Below are positions 8,309-32,094 of a stretch of 64,000 nucleotides of DNA, in pieces. The notes under the pieces are model-generated. The model had not been told where the DNA came from. It saw only the letters and a list, made by a program, of their open reading frames with translations, and searched no databases. Location of the stretch: assembly GCA_027082925.1 (NCBI GenBank), contig JALWTD010000010.1, positions 1 to 64,000 on the forward strand, written 5' to 3'. The stretch's first letter is position 1. Each line of letters starts with the position of its first letter. The position numbers were made by a program, and so were the translations under genes. The DNA comes from Flavobacteriaceae bacterium. Lineage in GTDB: Bacteria; Bacteroidota; Bacteroidia; Flavobacteriales; Flavobacteriaceae.

Positions 8309-9982
8309 ATGTTATATGAGAGATCTAAAGCTAAAGATATCATAGCAGATAAAGAAAAACTTAATAAAATTGTAGGTGAAACTATCGATAAAATGGCCAC
8401 AATTGTCGGATCTACGCTTGGCCCTGGAGGACGAGCTGTTTTGATTGAAAGAGATGGATTACCACCACTCGCGACGAAAGACGGTGTAACTGTAGCTAAA
8501 GCTATTGGAGTTGATAAAGCTGAAAATAATATTATAGTTGAAGCTTGTAAAGAAATTTGCATAAATACAGCTAAAGAAGCTGGAGATGGAACGACTACTG
8601 CGATTGTGTTAGCTAATGCAATCACAAAACACGGTCAAGATTTTGTAAATAGCAATACAAAATATAATCCGCAGAGAATTGTAAATGATCTTGAAGAATT
8701 ATATGAAGATGTAATAGTTCCATATATAAAATCTCAAGCATTATCTGTTGATGATGATGATAAACTACGAAGCGTAGCCACTATCTCTTCAAACGGAGAT
8801 AAGAAAATTGCAGATATTGTTGTAGATGCAGTCATGTCAGCTGGTGAAGATGGGCATATTATTCTTGAAGAAGCTCAAGGTAATGAAATGAGAGTTGAAA
8901 CTATTGATGGATATATTATAACTACAGGACTTAAGGATTTAGGTCAACTTGGACCAATGTTCATCAATGATAGAACAAATCAGCAATGCAAAATGGATAA
9001 TGGATTTGTTTTTTTATACAATGGATCAATAAATGATCTTAAAGCATTAGCATTTGTACAAGAAGCAATAGAGGGAACAGATATATGTGGATCTCCTCTT
9101 ATTCTTATTGCACATGATTTTGCGGATAATGTAATGGACAAAATTGCTCAAAATGTTAAAGGTGGAATAACAATTTGTCCTATCAAAACCCCTAGATCAG
9201 GTTTACCTAATTCTAAAACAGTGTTTTTAGAAGATATGGCTGCTTACACAGGTGGAAAAGTATTTGACCCGTCTAATATTGAAGAAATTGAAGAAGATGA
9301 TTTTGGATCTTTTATATTTGCTAAATCTAACACTTATGAAACTTTTATAATGGCAGAACCAGATGAAGAAAAATTAGAAAGTAGAATTTTAGAACTTAAA
9401 GCATTAGAAGAAGCTTGTTTTTCTGATATGGATAAAATGCATGTTCGTGCTAATATAGCTAAATTAACTGGTGGTATTTCTACTATATTCGTAGGTGGAG
9501 TATCTGATCTTAAGGTCAGAGAACGCAAAGCAAGAGTTGAAGATGCTGTTGAAGCAGTTAGATCTGCTATAGCAGAAGGGACAATAGCTGGTGGTTGTAA
9601 AATTCAATTAGAATTATCTAATCTTATAGCTAATCATAAAAATAAAAAAGCGTCTTGGGTAATTATGGAAAATGCCCTTAAGGAACCATTTAAACTATTG
9701 CTTACAAATTGTGGAGAAGATCACGACAAAGTCCTCAAAGACCTTAAGCCAGGCTATGTATTCGATGCAAATGCGCATAACTACGTTGAAGCTTACAAAG
9801 CGGGTATTATCGAACCGGCAAAAGTCGCTCGTGTTGCTATTGGAAATGCTTTGTCAGTTGCTTCACTTTTAATTACATGCGGGGGAATTGTTTGTGAAAG
9901 AAGAAATCCAGAATTAGAGGCGCAATTAGCAATGGCAAATCAATCATTTAAACAAATGATGAGCACTACTAGCGGATCTTAA
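8309..9982 (+). CDS. groEL: Phage-encoded GroEL-type (group I) chaperonin
   Basis: The 557-residue protein aligns along its length with bacterial GroEL. TLGPGGRAVLIE, TKDGVTVAK and AGDGTTTAIVLANAI form the ATP site (equivalents of E. coli Asp52 and Asp87 are present). KVRERKARVEDAVEAVRSA with EGTIAGG carries the equivalent of the catalytic Asp398. The C-terminal Gly-Gly-Met tail of cellular GroEL is replaced by a short Ser/Thr tail. The apical domain is divergent. Phage chaperonins of this kind help fold capsid or other phage proteins. No GroES was found nearby, so it either uses host GroES or acts alone, as reported for the phage EL chaperonin. AGGAG precedes the ATG. Confidence 0.93.
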   Translation: MLYERSKAKDIIADKEKLNKIVGETIDKMATIVGSTLGPGGRAVLIERDGLPPLATKDGVTVAKAIGVDKAENNIIVEACKEICINTAKEAGDGTTTAIVLANAITKHGQDFVNSNTKYNPQRIVNDLEELYEDVIVPYIKSQALSVDDDDKLRSVATISSNGDKKIADIVVDAVMSAGEDGHIILEEAQGNEMRVETIDGYIITTGLKDLGQLGPMFINDRTNQQCKMDNGFVFLYNGSINDLKALAFVQEAIEGTDICGSPLILIAHDFADNVMDKIAQNVKGGITICPIKTPRSGLPNSKTVFLEDMAAYTGGKVFDPSNIEEIEEDDFGSFIFAKSNTYETFIMAEPDEEKLESRILELKALEEACFSDMDKMHVRANIAKLTGGISTIFVGGVSDLKVRERKARVEDAVEAVRSAIAEGTIAGGCKIQLELSNLIANHKNKKASWVIMENALKEPFKLLLTNCGEDHDKVLKDLKPGYVFDANAHNYVEAYKAGIIEPAKVARVAIGNALSVASLLITCGGIVCERRNPELEAQLAMANQSFKQMMSTTSGS

Positions 9983-17123: not shown

Positions 17124-19910
17124 ATGAATTATCTCTTTCTCGATGTAGAGACAACTGGTCTTAATGAAAAAAAGAATGACATTATTCAATTGGCATGTAT
17201 ACCTATAATTAACGGAGTTCAACAAAAAACTTTTAATGAATTTTGTAAGCCGATTAATTGGAATGCTATTGATCCCTATGCTTTAAAAGTAACAGGGACA
17301 ACAGTAGAAATGTTAAAAACTTATCAAACACCTCAAGAAATGATTGAGAAGTTTGTGCAATATGTAGATTCATTTGGTGTTAAATTCACTATAGCAGGAT
17401 ATAATGTAGAATTTGATAAACGATTTATCTCATCTACATTTAAAAAATTAAACAGAACATCTGATTTTTTTAGAATGTTTGATATAACAGTTCATTGCAC
17501 ATTTAAAAGAGCTAAAAGTGTAAAAACTAAAATAGCATCACCAAATTTAAAATTAGGCACATTAGCTGATTTATATAACATTCCAATTAATGCACATGAT
17601 GCATTATCTGACATAGAAGCAACAATAAAAGTAGATAAAATTTTATCTAAATTGTTAGAAGAAGATGATACGACATACACCCCTGATATTTTAGTTGAAG
17701 ACATTAATATTAATACGGTATTCCCTGAAATGGCTCAATTACATGTACATTCTCAATATAATATGACAGATGGTGTACCACTTCCAAATGAGTGGTATAA
17801 ATGGGCAGCAGACAACAATGTTCCTGGTATTTCAATAGTAGATCAAGGGTCAGCTATATCGTTATTTAATTCAATTAGAAACAAAGAAAATACTGTAGCA
17901 GTGTCTGGTGTAGGTTTAAATATTTTACCAGAAGGAGAAGATGTCCCATATACTATTAATGCTTGGGCGTTAAATAACACAGGTTATAACAATTTAGTAA
18001 AACTTTCATCAATAGGATTTGAAACTTCAAAAGACATTAACGGTATCACTACTCCATTACTTACATTAGACCAGGTTGTAAAAAATAAAAGTGGATTAGC
18101 ATTTGGATTTTCAGACATTAGAGGCCCAATTGGTCAAGCATTTCAAGCTGGAGATGCAGAATTAGCTAATAGTAGATTCCATGAATTGAGTGATAAATTA
18201 AAAAATATCTACTTAGAGTTTAATCCAATAGATATAACAAGAGTTTATGATGGTAAGATTGGATTTAGAAATGTTAAAAAGAATGAATTAATAAAAGATG
18301 GAAATTTAAATAAAGCATACAATAAATTCATTTTTCAATATATAAAAGATTTTTCTGACATTAAAGCAATACCGGTATCTGGTGCATATTTTATTGATAG
18401 TTCTGATAAATTAGTTCAAGATTGTTTATCTAAAAATGCACATAAAGATGGTGCACACTTTCACGAATCATATCACATAAAGAAAACAGATCAAATATAT
18501 AAAGAGTTAAAAGTTCATCTTGGGGATGATTTAACTGAACATGAATTTAGTAAATGGATTCAAAATACGTTAGATATAGTAAATAAAGCTAAATCTGTTG
18601 ATGTTACTTTTGATTTTCATTTGCCAGAAATAGAAATTCCTGACTATATTAAGGCAAAAACATCTGATTATGATATGCAAACTTACTATGTAATGATGGA
18701 AAAAATTAAAAAACATGGTAGATGGAAAGATGATCCAGTTTACGTAAAGCGATTTAAAAAAGAATTAGATGTAATAATGAAAAATGAAGCTATGAATTTT
18801 ATTCCATATTTTTTAGTATACGAAGACGTATCTCAATATTCTAGAGATGCTGGATTTTTACAATCAATTGGAAGAGGGTCAGCAGGTGGTTGCTTAATAT
18901 CTTACTATTTACAAATAATCCACGTTGACCCTGTTGCGGCAGAATTGCCATTTGAAAGATTTTTATCTCATGCTCGTATTCGTGCAGGTTCATGGCCAGA
19001 TATTGATATGGATATTTCCAGAACAGCACGTCCTTATGTTATGAATTATTTAAAAGATAAGTATGGTTTAGGATTTGCACAAATATCAACATTTTCAACA
19101 ATGAAAACTAAAAATGCAATTAAAGATGCAATGATGGCAGTATATGGTCGTAATCGTAAAGATTTTGAAATAGATGCAGTGTGCAAAACAATACCAGATT
19201 CACCACAAGGTGTTGAAGAGGTAGATTTTTTATATGGATATACAGATAGAGAGGGTACATATCACACTGGTCAATTAGAAGAAAATGAAATGTTACAGAA
19301 TTTTTTTAATATTTATCCAGATATTGAGGGATTAGTAAAAAAACTATTAGGCGTTGTTAGAGGATGGTCTAGGCATGCTTCCGCATTTGTTATATCAACA
19401 ATTGATTTACGAGATGGACGAGTTCCAACATTAACTATGTATGATAATGGAATGGAGTGCAATATTAATGTTACTCAATATAATGCAAAAATGGTTGAGA
19501 ATAGTTCTTTAGTAAAAGCTGATTTATTAGGTCTTAACACTATGGCAATGGTGACTGATTGTGTTGAATTGTTAAAAGATAAAATAAATTATTTAGAGCA
19601 AGATGAAAATGGTGTAGCGCTTATTTATCGTTTGCCAGAAGATGAAGGTATTTATACTGATTTTTATAATAAAAAAACAGATTCATCATTTCAATTTAAT
19701 ACTGATGTTGTTAAAAATGCAGCCCCACAATTTACGCCAACTGAAAGAGGCCATCTCAGTATAATGACAGCACTTTTGCGACCTGGAGCGATGGATTGTC
19801 ACTTTTCTTCTAACACAACTGTTGTTGTAAAGTATGAAGATGGCAGTGTAGAATATTATGAAGAAAAGGAGTATAAAAAATGGCAAGAAAAATTAAAGAG
19901 TCAAAAATAA
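17124..19910 (+). CDS. dnaE: DnaE-type polymerase III alpha, N-terminal piece
   Basis: The 928-residue first part of the replicase. It has an N-terminal DEDDh 3'-5' exonuclease (FLDVETTGL at residues 5-13, HDALSD near 155). Next is a PHP domain (LHVHSQYNMTDG), whose later IVDQG suggests an altered metal site. The family C palm follows (SIGRGSAGG, PDIDMDI with the two catalytic Asp, and LVKADLLGLN with the third). It runs through RHASAFVIS to LRPGAMD in the fingers. There the match stops and a 38-residue foreign tail starts with Cys and reads TTVVVKYEDGS before the stop. The rest of the polymerase lies in the ORF at 20457. Confidence 0.88.
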   Translation: MNYLFLDVETTGLNEKKNDIIQLACIPIINGVQQKTFNEFCKPINWNAIDPYALKVTGTTVEMLKTYQTPQEMIEKFVQYVDSFGVKFTIAGYNVEFDKRFISSTFKKLNRTSDFFRMFDITVHCTFKRAKSVKTKIASPNLKLGTLADLYNIPINAHDALSDIEATIKVDKILSKLLEEDDTTYTPDILVEDININTVFPEMAQLHVHSQYNMTDGVPLPNEWYKWAADNNVPGISIVDQGSAISLFNSIRNKENTVAVSGVGLNILPEGEDVPYTINAWALNNTGYNNLVKLSSIGFETSKDINGITTPLLTLDQVVKNKSGLAFGFSDIRGPIGQAFQAGDAELANSRFHELSDKLKNIYLEFNPIDITRVYDGKIGFRNVKKNELIKDGNLNKAYNKFIFQYIKDFSDIKAIPVSGAYFIDSSDKLVQDCLSKNAHKDGAHFHESYHIKKTDQIYKELKVHLGDDLTEHEFSKWIQNTLDIVNKAKSVDVTFDFHLPEIEIPDYIKAKTSDYDMQTYYVMMEKIKKHGRWKDDPVYVKRFKKELDVIMKNEAMNFIPYFLVYEDVSQYSRDAGFLQSIGRGSAGGCLISYYLQIIHVDPVAAELPFERFLSHARIRAGSWPDIDMDISRTARPYVMNYLKDKYGLGFAQISTFSTMKTKNAIKDAMMAVYGRNRKDFEIDAVCKTIPDSPQGVEEVDFLYGYTDREGTYHTGQLEENEMLQNFFNIYPDIEGLVKKLLGVVRGWSRHASAFVISTIDLRDGRVPTLTMYDNGMECNINVTQYNAKMVENSSLVKADLLGLNTMAMVTDCVELLKDKINYLEQDENGVALIYRLPEDEGIYTDFYNKKTDSSFQFNTDVVKNAAPQFTPTERGHLSIMTALLRPGAMDCHFSSNTTVVVKYEDGSVEYYEEKEYKKWQEKLKSQK

Positions 19911-20479
19911 AAGAAATGATTTATTTTTACAAAAATAATAATGTATCATTACAACAAGTTGCAGATAAATTTAATGTAAGTAAAGCTACTGTATGGCAAT
20001 ATATGAGGAAAAACAATATTAAAATAGATGCACAGCGGACTAAAATTGGTAAGAAAGCATGGAATAGTGGTTTAACTAAAAATACAGATAGTAGAGTAGC
20101 TAAATATGCTAAAACTAAATCAAAAGATTATATTTTAGATGGATATAAAATGACCTGGTCTGATAAATTAAATAAATCAGTGCGTGAACATCATAAGGTA
20201 TGGTTTGAAAACACAGGTATTTGGCCAAACACTAAAATAGGTGAACAAATTCACCATATAGATGGCGATAAGTTAAATAATAATTTTAATAATTTAGTTT
20301 TATGTACTGCTGCCGAACATACAGAAATCCATAAAAAATATGAACAACTTGTATGTAAGTTAATTAAAAATGGAATAGTAAAATTTAATAAAAAAGATAA
20401 TTCATTAGATATAGAATATTTAGAAGAATTTTTAGACTTAAAAATGGAGTTAGATTATGGATCAGATAGGTCATGGTAA
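19880..20479 (+). CDS. HNH endonuclease inserted in dnaE
   Basis: A 199-residue endonuclease of a different HNH subfamily from most others here. An N-terminal helix-turn-helix (VSLQQVADKFNVSKATVWQYM) is followed by a linker and the core HHIDGDKLNNNFNNLVLCT...EHTEIH. The start sits in the tail of the first dnaE piece behind AAAGGAG. The end overlaps the second dnaE piece by 23 nt and supplies its ribosome-binding site (TGGAG). It lies between the two halves of the polymerase gene like the homing endonuclease that splits nrdA in Aeromonas phage Aeh1. Confidence 0.85.
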   Translation: MARKIKESKIKEMIYFYKNNNVSLQQVADKFNVSKATVWQYMRKNNIKIDAQRTKIGKKAWNSGLTKNTDSRVAKYAKTKSKDYILDGYKMTWSDKLNKSVREHHKVWFENTGIWPNTKIGEQIHHIDGDKLNNNFNNLVLCTAAEHTEIHKKYEQLVCKLIKNGIVKFNKKDNSLDIEYLEEFLDLKMELDYGSDRSW

Positions 20480-21815
20480 AAAAATAGTAAGTGTAGAATT
20501 AATCCCAGGTATTGCTATAGAGGATAAAGTATCAGCGACTCAACAATATATAGATGTGCGATTAGGTAAAAAGAAAACATCTTATATTCATCCAGATTTA
20601 AAACCAATTCTCGAAGAAACTTATGGAATTATTGTTTATCAAGAGCAGGTTATGAAAATTTTAGTTGATATTTGTGGATATACATTAGAAGAAACAGATC
20701 GAATTAGAGATGCAATTGCTAAGAAAAAGCATGATGTTATGATGTCTGCATTTAAGAGAATTAGGGAAGCAACTGCGCCAAAAGGATGGACAGTAGAGCA
20801 GCAAGATGCATTATGTAATACTATTCAAGCATTTTCAAGATATTCTTTTAATAGATCACATAGTCATTGTTATGCTGAATTAGGATACATCACAATGTAT
20901 CTTAAGCATCATCATCCATTAGAATGGTGGGCAGCAGTTTTAAATAATGAGAGCAAAGAAGATAAAACACGAGCTTTTATTGCCTTATTAGGTGATATCG
21001 TAAAACCACCTTCAATGAAAGATCCTTCTGAGTTTTTTAAGGTAGATGGTGAATATATAACGGCACCTATTTCTGCAATCAAAGGAGTTGGTCCTGCAGC
21101 AGTTTCAGAACTTGTTTTAAAAGGGCCATTTAGAGATTTAGCAGATTATGTAAAAAGAGTTGAACATCGTAAGGTAAATAAAGGAGTTGTTGAGGCTATA
21201 GTTAAAGCTAGAGCAGCGGATTCTTTAATGGACAAATCCCTTCCTACGTACGCAGATCAAAGACTTGCATTTTTAGCTGAATATAATCAGTTAAGGGGAG
21301 GAAAAATAGCTTGGAAACCAGATGTTAAAGATACTAATCCATTAAGTATTTTCTTTATGGAAAAAGATATGAATAAAACTTTTAATAAACACTTATTATC
21401 TGATCAAGAAGTTAAAGATTATTTAAAAACTAAATGGCCACATTTAAAGAATACTGGAAATATTGGTGCACCTTTTTTAATGCCAATGAAAAATGGAAGC
21501 ACTACTACTATTATTAATAATGTTAAAGTTGCTGAAGGATTAATTGATAAAGGGTATAAAAAAGAAATTGGAATGATAATGCTTTATGAAGGTTCTAATG
21601 TTAGAAAAGGTATATCAAAAAAATCAGGTAAAGATTATTGTATGCTTAATATTAAACTTTCTGATGGCTATACTGACGTTGAGTGTGTGGACTGGAATAG
21701 AAAAAGGCCACTGCGCATCCCAGAGAACAGTATTGTTTATGTAAGAGGAACTTTAAAAGAAGGTTGGAAAAAGACGTGTAGTATAAATTTAAAAGAGATT
21801 GAAATTATTAAATAG
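20457..21815 (+). CDS. dnaE: DnaE-type polymerase III alpha, C-terminal piece
   Basis: The 452-residue second part of the replicase. It begins MDQIGHGKK, repeating the Met-Asp at which the first piece stops matching, and continues with family features. These are the fingers (YIDVRLGKKK, YGIIVYQEQVM, IRDAIAKKK, FNRSHSHCYAELGYITMYLK), a helix-hairpin-helix (SAIKGVGPAAVSEL) and a C-terminal OB fold with DVECVDWN. It has its own ribosome-binding site inside the HNH gene. The two pieces probably assemble non-covalently; no intein C-terminal His-Asn is present. Confidence 0.85.
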   Translation: MDQIGHGKKIVSVELIPGIAIEDKVSATQQYIDVRLGKKKTSYIHPDLKPILEETYGIIVYQEQVMKILVDICGYTLEETDRIRDAIAKKKHDVMMSAFKRIREATAPKGWTVEQQDALCNTIQAFSRYSFNRSHSHCYAELGYITMYLKHHHPLEWWAAVLNNESKEDKTRAFIALLGDIVKPPSMKDPSEFFKVDGEYITAPISAIKGVGPAAVSELVLKGPFRDLADYVKRVEHRKVNKGVVEAIVKARAADSLMDKSLPTYADQRLAFLAEYNQLRGGKIAWKPDVKDTNPLSIFFMEKDMNKTFNKHLLSDQEVKDYLKTKWPHLKNTGNIGAPFLMPMKNGSTTTIINNVKVAEGLIDKGYKKEIGMIMLYEGSNVRKGISKKSGKDYCMLNIKLSDGYTDVECVDWNRKRPLRIPENSIVYVRGTLKEGWKKTCSINLKEIEIIK

Positions 21816-28372: not shown

Positions 28373-28898
28373 AACTTGCAATGTCTGTAATATATTAAAA
28401 GACAATGAATATTTTTACAAAAATATTTTATCTAAAGATGGATTTAGAAATAACTGTAAACAATGTGAAAAAAAAAGAAAAAAAATATATTATAGTAAAC
28501 CAGAAATAAAAGCAAAAGAAAAAGAGAAAAAAAATAAATATAGAAATATAGAAAAAAACAAAATAATAGCAAGAAAAAAAACCAATGAATGGTATCATAA
28601 TAATAAAAATAAAGTTAAAAAATATCAAAAAGAAAATGCATATAAACTTTTAGCTAATAATGCCAAATATAGAGCTAAGAAATTAAATGCCACTCCAAAA
28701 TGGCTTACTAAGGAGCATTTAAAAGAAATAAGAGAAATTTATAAAAATAGTTCTAAAGATCACCACGTAGACCATATAGTCCCACTTCAAGGAAAGTCTG
28801 TATCTGGATTGCATGTTCCTTGGAATTTAAGAGTTATAACTAAGGAAGAAAATTTAAGTAAAAGCAATAAGTTATTAAAAGAGGCAATAAATGGCTAA
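28365..28898 (+). CDS. HNH homing endonuclease upstream of terL
   Basis: A 177-residue HNH endonuclease. It starts with a Cys-x2-Cys knuckle (TCNVCNIL) and a second CKQCEKK. A Lys-rich helical middle leads to [23 protein letters not shown]. That C-terminal block matches the gene at 36459 and the remnant at 25719. The end overlaps the terL start by 8 nt and includes the AGAGG used by terL. It probably cuts terL-region DNA of relatives that lack it. Confidence 0.88.
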
Positions 28899-31800
28899 TC
28901 AAAGTGTTGATCTTAGTAAAATACCTTTAAAACAAAGATCAAAGTTGTTTTTTAAAAAATGTAAAACTAAAGAAGAATTATCTAAGTTTATTCAGGTATT
29001 TTTTGGATTATATTTACCAGATCAAACTGTATCTAGATTTGCAGATACTAATCCATTACAGATTATTTGGGAAGTTTACGATATAACTGTTAATAAGAAT
29101 AACCCAGAAGGGATTGAAGAATTATTGTATGTTGCTGGTCGTGGATCAGGAAAATGCTCTTTGAAGGGTACTTATATATCTACACCTAGCGGACCTAAGA
29201 TGATTGAAAACATATTAAAGAATGACTATGTTTATACAGGTTCGGGTCAGCGTCAACGCGTATTAGAGACATTTTCCGAAGGTACAAAAGAAGGTATAAA
29301 AGTTATAACAAAAGTAGGCAAAAAACAAGGAGTTTTTTCAATTACTGGATCTTTGAGGCACCGAGTTCAGGCCTTACAGCCAGATGGAACAGTTTGCTGG
29401 AAGTACTTACCTGATTTAAAAAAAGGAGATATATTATATAAAACAGCAGAAATGTCAGATATATCTGTAGATCAATCTTCAGAAGATTATAATAAAGGAT
29501 GGATAGCTGGCTGTATTACCGGTGATGGGCATGTAAATAAAGAAAACATGCATATTTCGCTGTGTGGATCAGATACTCATCAAATGGCAGCATTTACTAA
29601 CAAAGTTAAACAATACTTTCCCGATGTAAAAGTTAATTATAATTTTAGTAAAAGAGAAGAACATTACACAGGTCATTACAATGTCACGATAAAAAGTAAA
29701 ATATTTAAAAGTTGGTTTAATTCATTGATAAAAGGTAGATTAAGCTACGATAAACAACTACGTACATTAGAGCATTCATATGACTTTTTAGCTGGATTCT
29801 TTGCTGGAATGATGGATACGGATGGATCTAAAAGTAGTATCACTTTAGCAAACAAGGGCTTAACTTATCAATTAGGCCAAATTCTTACTTTGTTTGGGGG
29901 GCATGGGGTGGTAAATAATAGACGAAGACCACCAAGATACTCTAAAATAATTAAAAAGAATGTGGAATATTATTCTCTTGAATACAAATCTAAGTTACCA
30001 CATTATATGCTGCCATTATATTCTAAGCGAAGCAATTTTATAAAGCATATCAATAAGAAAAACGAGCAATTTAGGTACCCTAAACAAATTATATTATCAT
30101 TTGGTAAGTTTATAAAAGAGAAATATGAAATAGCAAATGGATATTGGAAATTAGCGCCAGGTAAAAAGACTCATTCTAAAATAAAGTATTCTAAAGATCT
30201 CTGGGGACCAAAAGCAGAAAAGGAAAATTTTATTTGTGGTTACAAAGTTGAGTACTTTATAGAACTAGCGAAATTTCTGAGGGAAGATGAATGGGTAGAT
30301 AAACTATCATTCTTTAAAAATGGATACTATGAACAAGTAGATAAGTTGATTCCAGGTAAATATGAATTTTATGACCTATCAATAGAAAATGATCATACTT
30401 ATGTAAGTAATGGTTTCATTTCTCATAATACTTTAGGTATGGCTATAGCTGAATTACTTATTATGCTACATGATAGTAGAGACGTGTGTCATGTTGGTGC
30501 TGTTATTGCTCAAGCAAAACGCTGCTATGAATACCAAACTAATTTCATGCTTAGCCCTAGAATCAGACCTATATTAGACAATAAAAAACTACCTCAAGAT
30601 AGTAGAGTTCTTCAAAAGTTAAATATGGAGAAATCTGCATTTAACATAGATGGTAAACCAGTAACACTAGAAGTTTTACCGTGTACTTTAAAGGCATGTA
30701 ATGGACCGCATGTTCCATTAGTTGTTACAGATGAGATCGATACTGTTTCAGGTGAAGGCTTAAAAGCATTTAAAGAAATTTCAGGAATGTTGGATTCTAG
30801 AGGAGATAAGGTTGCTCTTAGAGTTGGAATTTCAACACGAAAGTCTAGATATGGACTTATGAATAAGATGATGGAAGATGCTGAAAGTGCTGGTAGGCAT
30901 GTGCGCAGATGGACAGCTTGGGAATTTACAGCTAAATGTCCAGACGAAAGATCGGGAACTATACCTACGAAATCATATCATATATTAGATGATATGGAAG
31001 TTATAGATGAAAAAACTTATAAACGAAAAGATCCTAAAAAACAAAAAGAATATACTGAACATATATTACCAGGAGAAAAGTGTCTTAAGTGTCCTGCTGC
31101 AGCAATTTGTTTAGGTGATGCTAAAAAACAAACATCTAAGTCATGGATGTTAAAGCCAGTAAGTGAGTTGATAAAAAAAGTAAGATCAGAAGGCACAGAT
31201 TGGGCACTTTCTCAATTAATGAATCTTAAACCTTCTGTTGAAGGAATTATATATAAGGAATTTGATGAAAAAATACATGTAAAAGATTGGAATCAAATGT
31301 GGAAAACATTAACAGGAGTTAACTATCCTGGAGAATGCACTCATGATATTTTTGTTAAAAAATGCCATGCAATGAAATTACAATGTTATGCTGGAGTGGA
31401 CTGGGGATGGTCTAATCCAAATACTGTTGTTTATTTCTTTGTAGATAAAAAAGATAATATTTTTATAGTTAGAGCCGATGGTATGACATACGTGTCTCAG
31501 CCTGAGTGGGTGCACTACATAAAGTCTAGATATCATAATATGTATAGATGTCAACTATATTTTCCAGACTGTGCTGATCAAGGTGCAGTAACTGAAATGA
31601 GAAAAGCAGGGTTACCTGTTTCATCTGAAATTGATAAAGCTATAAACACCGGTATACAGGTTATAAAAAAGCTACTAAGGGTCCCTGGATCGCAGGATAC
31701 AAAAATACATTTAGCTAAAGAAACAACCACGTCATTAAGGGACGAATTCTTAACATATCACTTTAAAACATCGGCAGATGGAACTATAACAGAAAATCCA

Positions 31801-32094
31801 GAATCAGAATATGATCATTGGTTAGATGCACTTCGATATCCGCTTACTATTTTAATGGGAAAAGGCACTATGGTTTTAGGTAAAACTGCAGATGTTGATG
31901 TAAATAAAACACAAGATAGTAGAGGTAATTTTTATAGAACTCCAACAGCTGAAGAATTTGCTGCTGCAAATAATATATCCATCAATGCAGAAGAGCCAGA
32001 TTTATCAAAATTAGGTAAAATTGGTAAATTATCTGATCTTGATGACGATGACGATGAGTGGAACGGTGGTGGAGGTTTTTTATGGAGTTTATAA
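28891..32094 (+). CDS. terL: Terminase large subunit with an in-frame intein
   Basis: The 1067-residue precursor carries a 425-residue intein; the spliced terminase would have 642 residues. The ATPase Walker A AGRGSGK-T is split by the intein. Walker B is LVVTDEID. The nuclease domain has [15 protein letters not shown] (first Asp), PDCADQG, and [12 protein letters not shown] (last acidic residues). A cysteine cluster ([15 protein letters not shown], with KCPDERSG upstream) lies between the two domains and may bind a metal. TerL drives DNA packaging and cuts concatemers. It is inactive until splicing restores the P-loop. Confidence 0.93.
29155..30429 (+). mobile_element. LAGLIDADG intein inside the TerL P-loop
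   Basis: An intein of 425 residues from Cys89 to Asn513. Block A is [13 protein letters not shown]. The C-terminal blocks are [19 protein letters not shown] and SHN, followed by extein Thr514. It contains a homing endonuclease with two LAGLIDADG-type motifs ([11 protein letters not shown] and [13 protein letters not shown]). The insertion point lies between Lys and Thr of Walker A, the most conserved part of the host protein, a classic homing target. All splicing residues appear intact. Confidence 0.92.

Follow-up and report, generated by a model that had tools for sequence, protein, structure and literature searches.

A bacterial virus probably builds its family-C DNA polymerase from two proteins encoded around an HNH homing-endonuclease-like gene

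Introduction

Among described genes in pieces, the closest to the locus reported here is the split NrdA of Aeromonas phage Aeh1 (NrdA-a/mobE/NrdA-b), on which Friedrich in 2007 and Crona in 2011 reportedly worked; the title of the latter study is said to refer to interaction domains derived from a mobile element. Fractured genes with split inteins were reportedly described by Dassa in 2009. Our subject is a family-C DNA polymerase (DnaE) gene found in two pieces on a 73,242-bp contig (C10) of a Flavobacteriaceae assembly, of which the first 64 kb were analyzed (hereafter, the window).

The split NrdA of Aeh1 is fully functional, and in Aeromonas phage 25 the pieces of split gp43 co-purify and have activity (PMC2988022, PMC3267527). 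A hairpin that hides the ribosome-binding site of mobE has also been reported in Aeh1 (PMC2988022). The locus in the window is of this known kind (i.e., an Aeh1-type gene in pieces), here found in a family-C replicase.

Results

Organization of the split polymerase locus

The window encodes a family-C DNA polymerase (DnaE; exonuclease–PHP–PolIIIα) as two open reading frames (ORFs) that flank an intact helix-turn-helix (HTH)–HNH gene, and sequence comparison suggests a replicase that is probably assembled from two separate polypeptides. The features of the locus are listed below; L001 and L098 are two metagenomic phages that carry the same break.

17124..19910, + strand: DnaE piece 1 (928 amino acids [aa]), with the DEDDh exonuclease, PHP, palm/thumb, PolIIIα NTPase, and N-terminal half of the fingers
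19797..19907, + strand: non-family tail of piece 1 (37 residues, CHFSSNTTVVVKYEDGSVEYYEEKEYKKWQEKLKSQK), kept in L001 and L098
19802..19868, + strand: candidate RNA hairpin, a lead only, with its 3' arm (approximately 19860-19868) over part of the Shine-Dalgarno of the HNH gene
19864..19871, + strand: Shine-Dalgarno of the HNH gene (AAAAGGAG), within the tail codons
19880..20479, + strand: HTH + HNH_3 homing-endonuclease-like gene (199 aa), overlapping both polymerase pieces
20446..20449, + strand: Shine-Dalgarno of piece 2 (GGAG), inside the HNH gene and 7 nucleotides (nt) before the ATG at 20457; its L001 counterpart is GGAGG, with similar spacing
20457..21815, + strand: DnaE piece 2 (452 aa), with the C-terminal half of the fingers, helix-hairpin-helix, and OB domain
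20457..20489, + strand: non-family head of piece 2 (MDQIGHGKKIV, 11 residues; 7 in L001)

A first reading of the letters alone (the sequence-only reading) had proposed a DnaE in two pieces around an HNH gene, and the ORF coordinates and the division of the Pfam fingers domain agree with it, as does the same layout in L001. The DNA_pol3_finger profile is divided exactly between the pieces (profile positions 20 to 82 in piece 1 and 83 to 161 in piece 2), and in alignments with E. coli Pol IIIα structures, D891 of piece 1 lies near residue 645 and residue 30 of piece 2 near residue 650. The break (LRPGAMD, then C) falls in a hypervariable fingers loop just after the LRPGAMD motif. The PHP, palm with its three catalytic aspartates, fingers, helix-hairpin-helix, and OB domains are all present, spread over both pieces. 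All three family-C catalytic aspartates (D626, D628, and D800, which occupy invariant alignment columns and which we take to be D401, D403, and D555 of E. coli) are in piece 1. The catalytic residues lie in piece 1, whereas piece 2 supplies half of the fingers, so the two polypeptides would have to assemble. A Shine-Dalgarno precedes each of the three ORFs in both the window and L001 (AAGGAG for piece 1), and the site that the sequence-only reading had placed for piece 2 inside the HNH gene is indeed there. The HNH protein matched HNH_3 (6e-10) and PHROG 7545 (9.5e-21) and retains the motif QIHHIDGDKLNN..NL..EHT..H.

The contig carries a typical phage gene set (TerL, portal, major head protein, PhoH, UvsX-like recombinase, RuvC-like resolvase, and GroEL), and its source is an uncultured bacterial virus. 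No disruption besides the one break was found in the polymerase pieces, and no further DNA polymerase was found on the contig. Contig C21 carries a host DnaE (35%) and contig C18 a PolA, and there is no PolB; apart from the split locus itself, nothing in the assembly closely matched piece 2.

Split and uninterrupted relatives

L001 has the same order of tail, HNH gene, and head, with 85% (piece 1) and 84% (piece 2) identity to the window. In L098, whose contig stops within the HNH gene, piece 1 (70% identity), the tail, and two thirds of that gene are present. Because the break recurs in both phages, together with the foreign tail and the HNH gene, it is not an assembly artefact. The architecture therefore holds in three phage lineages, with piece 2 seen in two of them.

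Alignment with uninterrupted homologues, which the sequence-only reading had suggested, showed that three close relatives (L002 to L004), approximately 81% identical to the window in piece 1, read through the site (LRPGAMD-STMESGISATQWY), as do approximately 35 more distant relatives. Thus, one host gene is open in relatives and is divided by a nuclease gene at a single site in the window, L001, and L098. In the open relatives, a loop of approximately 5 to more than 25 residues comes after LRPGAMD (or its equivalent), and [ST]A..[YF] follows the loop; because of these varied loop lengths, we regard the site as a motif beside a length-tolerant loop. A scan of genome contigs yielded cellular DnaE-like matches only (≤42% identity) and no close phage relative, in a phylum-wide genome search the phage turned up in no assembly but that of the window, and HNH scans of viral contigs returned nothing beyond two already known loci. 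One pattern match (L186) was unrelated.

The junctions were less simple than the sequence-only reading had them. A foreign tail does follow LRPGAMD, at 37 rather than 38 residues (the last family residue being D891). MDQIGHGKK, at the start of piece 2, had been taken as family sequence; judging from the uninterrupted relatives and from the L001 head (MDKRRIV, then SVEL), the family resumes only at about residue 12 (SVELIPG..SATQQY), and the head is a short segment that varies between phages. ATGGAT does occur at both 19791 and 20457, yet a duplicated Met-Asp junction could not be upheld as evidence: ATGGAT occurs 57 times on the + strand of the window, 3 of 61 checked ORFs start with ATGGAT or ATGGAC, and the copy at piece 2 is simply the start codon plus the next codon. 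The repeat is also present in L001, which adds little weight, and a target-site duplication at Met-Asp is possible, with no independent support. Nor does it matter that the 666-nt insert is a multiple of three; in L001 the two pieces have a frame offset of +1, compared with 0 in the window, and the length is therefore due to chance. This difference in frame relation between the phages favors independent initiation.

Selection on the two halves and on the tail

Both halves of the polymerase are under strong purifying selection. The ratio of nonsynonymous to synonymous differences (pN/pS) between the window and L001 was 0.16 for piece 1 and 0.18 for piece 2, with synonymous sites close to saturation; because the ratios are this low at such divergence, we conclude that both halves have been maintained since the break. 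The HNH gene is likewise under purifying selection, with a pN/pS of 0.19 to 0.30.

The tail is under moderate selection. The window, L001, and L098 share the pattern CHFSSN[TA]TV[VM]VKY..G..EYY...E...WQEKLK.Q, with 70 to 78% identity among the three phages. The tail codons outside the HNH overlap had a pN/pS of 0.25 to 0.38 (Fisher P = 4e-4 for the window versus L001), and variable columns before the HNH start codon numbered 9, 5, and 15 by codon position (third position versus the others, P = 0.007). The tail had no significant match to solved structures or to Pfam/NCBIfam families.

The RNA of the tail can be folded such that, in the window and L001, an arm starting with CUUUUC covers part of the HNH Shine-Dalgarno (AAAAGGAG), and in L098 a shifted pairing (CUUCUC/GAGGAG) covers it in full. 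Compared with shuffled sequences, the hairpin had z scores of -1.4 (window), -3.45 (L001), and -1.3 (L098), i.e., only that of L001 was clearly more stable among the three sequences.

Possible mobility of the HNH gene

In the polymerase tree, (L098,(L002,(window,L001))), L002, which has no insert, is nested among carriers with 100/100 support. The insert is thus patchy and was either lost once or gained more than once. The HNH proteins of the window and L098 are 78% identical and those of the window and L001 79%, compared with 70% and 85%, respectively, for the polymerase. The ratio of the window-L001 distance to the window-L098 distance was 0.93 for HNH and 0.49 for the polymerase, and the HNH value was reached in 5 of 5,000 resamples of the polymerase core. 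Such discordance would fit horizontal movement of the nuclease gene; a faster rate along the L001 branch is the alternative.

Other explanations for the break

A split intein would make the tail an intein N-half and the head of piece 2 its C-half, with the polymerase ligated by trans-splicing after translation. A real break of this type exists at the homologous position in the phage DnaE of L054 (LYRPGPLN/CLQKDV... and ...VVHN/CKMH, slashes marking the junctions), with a nuclease-like gene between the halves, and the first residue of the tail is a Cys. This Cys is not special, however, because the uninterrupted DnaE of L089 also has RPGAMDCH. The heads MDQIGHGKKIV and MDKRRIV contain neither Asn nor His-Asn, so the obligatory C-terminal intein residue is missing, and the tail has neither block B nor a match to an intein hidden Markov model. 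Aligned with three intein N-halves, the tail scored no better than its shuffled versions (60 of 100 shuffles reached its score). The intein model did find the TerL intein of the same phage (positive control), and L054 has blocks A and B. We consider trans-splicing very unlikely, and excision of the HNH gene from the mRNA as part of a group I intron is highly improbable. In favor of the intron, Providencia phage PS3 has a related HNH gene within a group I intron of its PolA gene. That intron was detected as a positive control, whereas the insert in the window had no Rfam intron match even with permissive filters (E values up to 10). Furthermore, an intron would have to fit into 83 nt before the HNH start and zero between the HNH gene and piece 2, which overlap; those 83 nt show the constraint of an open frame in three phages, and both pieces have their own Shine-Dalgarno.

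A single full-length chain could also arise by ribosomal bypassing of the T4 gene 60 kind, with a jump from the ATGGAT before the insert to the one after it. The matched GAT codons on both sides, in the window and in L001, are what such a jump would use, but its length of 660 nt is far above the 50 nt bypassed in T4 gene 60. No stop codon marks the take-off site, the window and L001 differ in frame relation, and a Shine-Dalgarno at the landing site is suited to ordinary initiation, leaving bypassing barely credible. One-chain readings, by frameshift as well as by bypass, were set aside on grounds of frame, stops, and Shine-Dalgarno. The remaining explanation, a decaying pseudogene in a phage that uses the host replicase, draws on the broken gene and on the host's own DnaE on C21. 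It is hard to reconcile with pN/pS values of 0.16 to 0.18 in both halves at near-saturated synonymous divergence between two phages that both have the break, or with intact catalytic aspartates, mostly intact invariant columns, and the lack of other disruptions; we regard decay as very doubtful.

Other mobile elements and neighboring genes

The closest uninterrupted DnaE relative, L002 (2839-3915; likewise L003 and L004), has an intein tens of codons downstream of the site (YGVC/CVASDTK...VHN/CFQEQVM), which makes the fingers region a hot spot for mobile elements. In L054 (3496-7551) and also L055, a nuclease-like ORF of 337 aa lies between the two parts of a phage DnaE fractured by a genuine split intein. 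Because this intein uses the homologous residue in a distantly related phage DnaE, the site appears to be a natural weak point at which two kinds of parasite have made the same cut. An in-frame intein with weak Intein_splicing and LAGLIDADG_3 matches interrupts the Walker A motif (GRGSGK/C ... SHN/T) of the window's TerL (28891-32094; 1,067 aa). In Vibrio phage MJW (L185:711-3350), a related HNH gene separates two ORFs that together encode PolA, at a position apparently close to that of the PS3 intron; this is possibly an unannotated intron.

Two HNH-like/zinc-finger nuclease-like genes of L001 (1450-1893 and 8853-9431) have no counterpart at the matching places of the window, and the phage group seems rich in free-standing homing endonucleases. 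Past 64 kb, the window contig (L189:8908-12261) has several ORFs, judged by eye to be HNH/zinc-finger nuclease-like, around a thymidylate-synthase-like gene; two of these ORFs have no Pfam match. The phage-encoded GroEL-like chaperonin is at 8309-9982 (PHROG 5725; E value, 1.5e-103).

Discussion

The best-supported explanation, to which we assign a probability of roughly 0.86, is a gene in pieces like Aeh1 NrdA, whose two polypeptides assemble into a replicase; translation, assembly, activity, and cleavage of empty sites are the parts of it that we infer. A two-polypeptide polymerase split in the fingers was also the conclusion of the sequence-only reading, and it appears sound in that both halves are constrained and have their own Shine-Dalgarnos, no intron or intein was found, and the insert is patchy. 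In an ancestral phage, a mobile, free-standing HNH homing-endonuclease gene would have entered the polymerase gene at the conserved LRPGAMD motif, beside the length-tolerant fingers loop. The insertion would have closed piece 1 with the 37-residue tail and supplied piece 2, within the 3' end of the HNH gene, with a new start codon and ribosome-binding site. Three proteins would then be made from the operon (piece 1 from AAGGAG, HNH from AAAAGGAG in the tail, and piece 2 from GGAG in the HNH gene); the two polymerase polypeptides would bind each other non-covalently to give a working replicase, in the manner of NrdA-a and NrdA-b in Aeh1. The HNH enzyme would cleave uninterrupted alleles at the same site and copy itself in, and the tail would have a role in assembly.

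Several points weigh against this explanation. The case is built on comparison of sequences. Association of the pieces is not visible in AlphaFold predictions, in which they were modelled separately, because confidence was low at the break (the tail, residues 798 to 905 of piece 1, and residues 1 to 23 of piece 2). Piece 2 of L098 is absent from the data, the contig stopping first; the pairing of the window with L001 in the tree is supported at 83/78 only; and the HNH discordance is based on 131 residues in three sequences. In addition, the constraint on the tail may be at the protein level, at the RNA level (hairpin and HNH ribosome-binding site), or both. A more speculative and rather doubtful idea combines the two: the tail would act as a small domain, binding piece 2 or the fingers and keeping the broken replicase together, and its nucleotides would at the same time form the hairpin hiding the ribosome-binding site of the nuclease, one sequence serving both host enzyme and parasite.

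A search of the open-access literature, incomplete in coverage and hence weak evidence of novelty, returned no account of a homing endonuclease that splits a family-C polymerase in the absence of an intein. If our explanation is true, a family-C replicase, of the class that copies bacterial chromosomes, can be cut in the fingers and kept working over long evolution, and a homing endonuclease can occupy an essential gene without an intron or intein. The locus would also offer a natural split replicase for the study of fingers assembly.

The known systems resemble the window to different degrees. Like the window, Aeh1 NrdA is an essential phage enzyme cut in two by a free-standing HNH gene without an intron or intein; its element-derived interaction domains parallel the tail, and its mobE hairpin recalls the candidate hairpin. 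It differs in being a ribonucleotide reductase rather than a family-C replicase. The nuclease gene in the window is an HTH-HNH gene of the PHROG 7545 type. Function is predicted in the window, where the split can be traced in three diverged phages and an uninterrupted sister. Gene 43 (family B; 43A/43B) of Aeromonas phages 25 and 44RR likewise provides a phage replicative polymerase as two polypeptides, with a homing endonuclease at the phage 25 break, but it belongs to an unrelated polymerase family, its nuclease is of the Seg type, and the origin of its split is uncertain (PMC2988022). L054 and L055 share with the window a DnaE in two ORFs around a nuclease-like gene and a break at the homologous fingers residue; they have real intein halves (Cys1...; ...HN/C) and a different nuclease, whereas the window has neither half. 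In Providencia phage PS3 PolA and Vibrio phage MJW, a gene of the same broad HTH-HNH family interrupts a DNA polymerase gene, as in the window. The PS3 HNH gene lies inside a detectable group I intron and its polymerase is annotated as joined, whereas no intron was found in the window.

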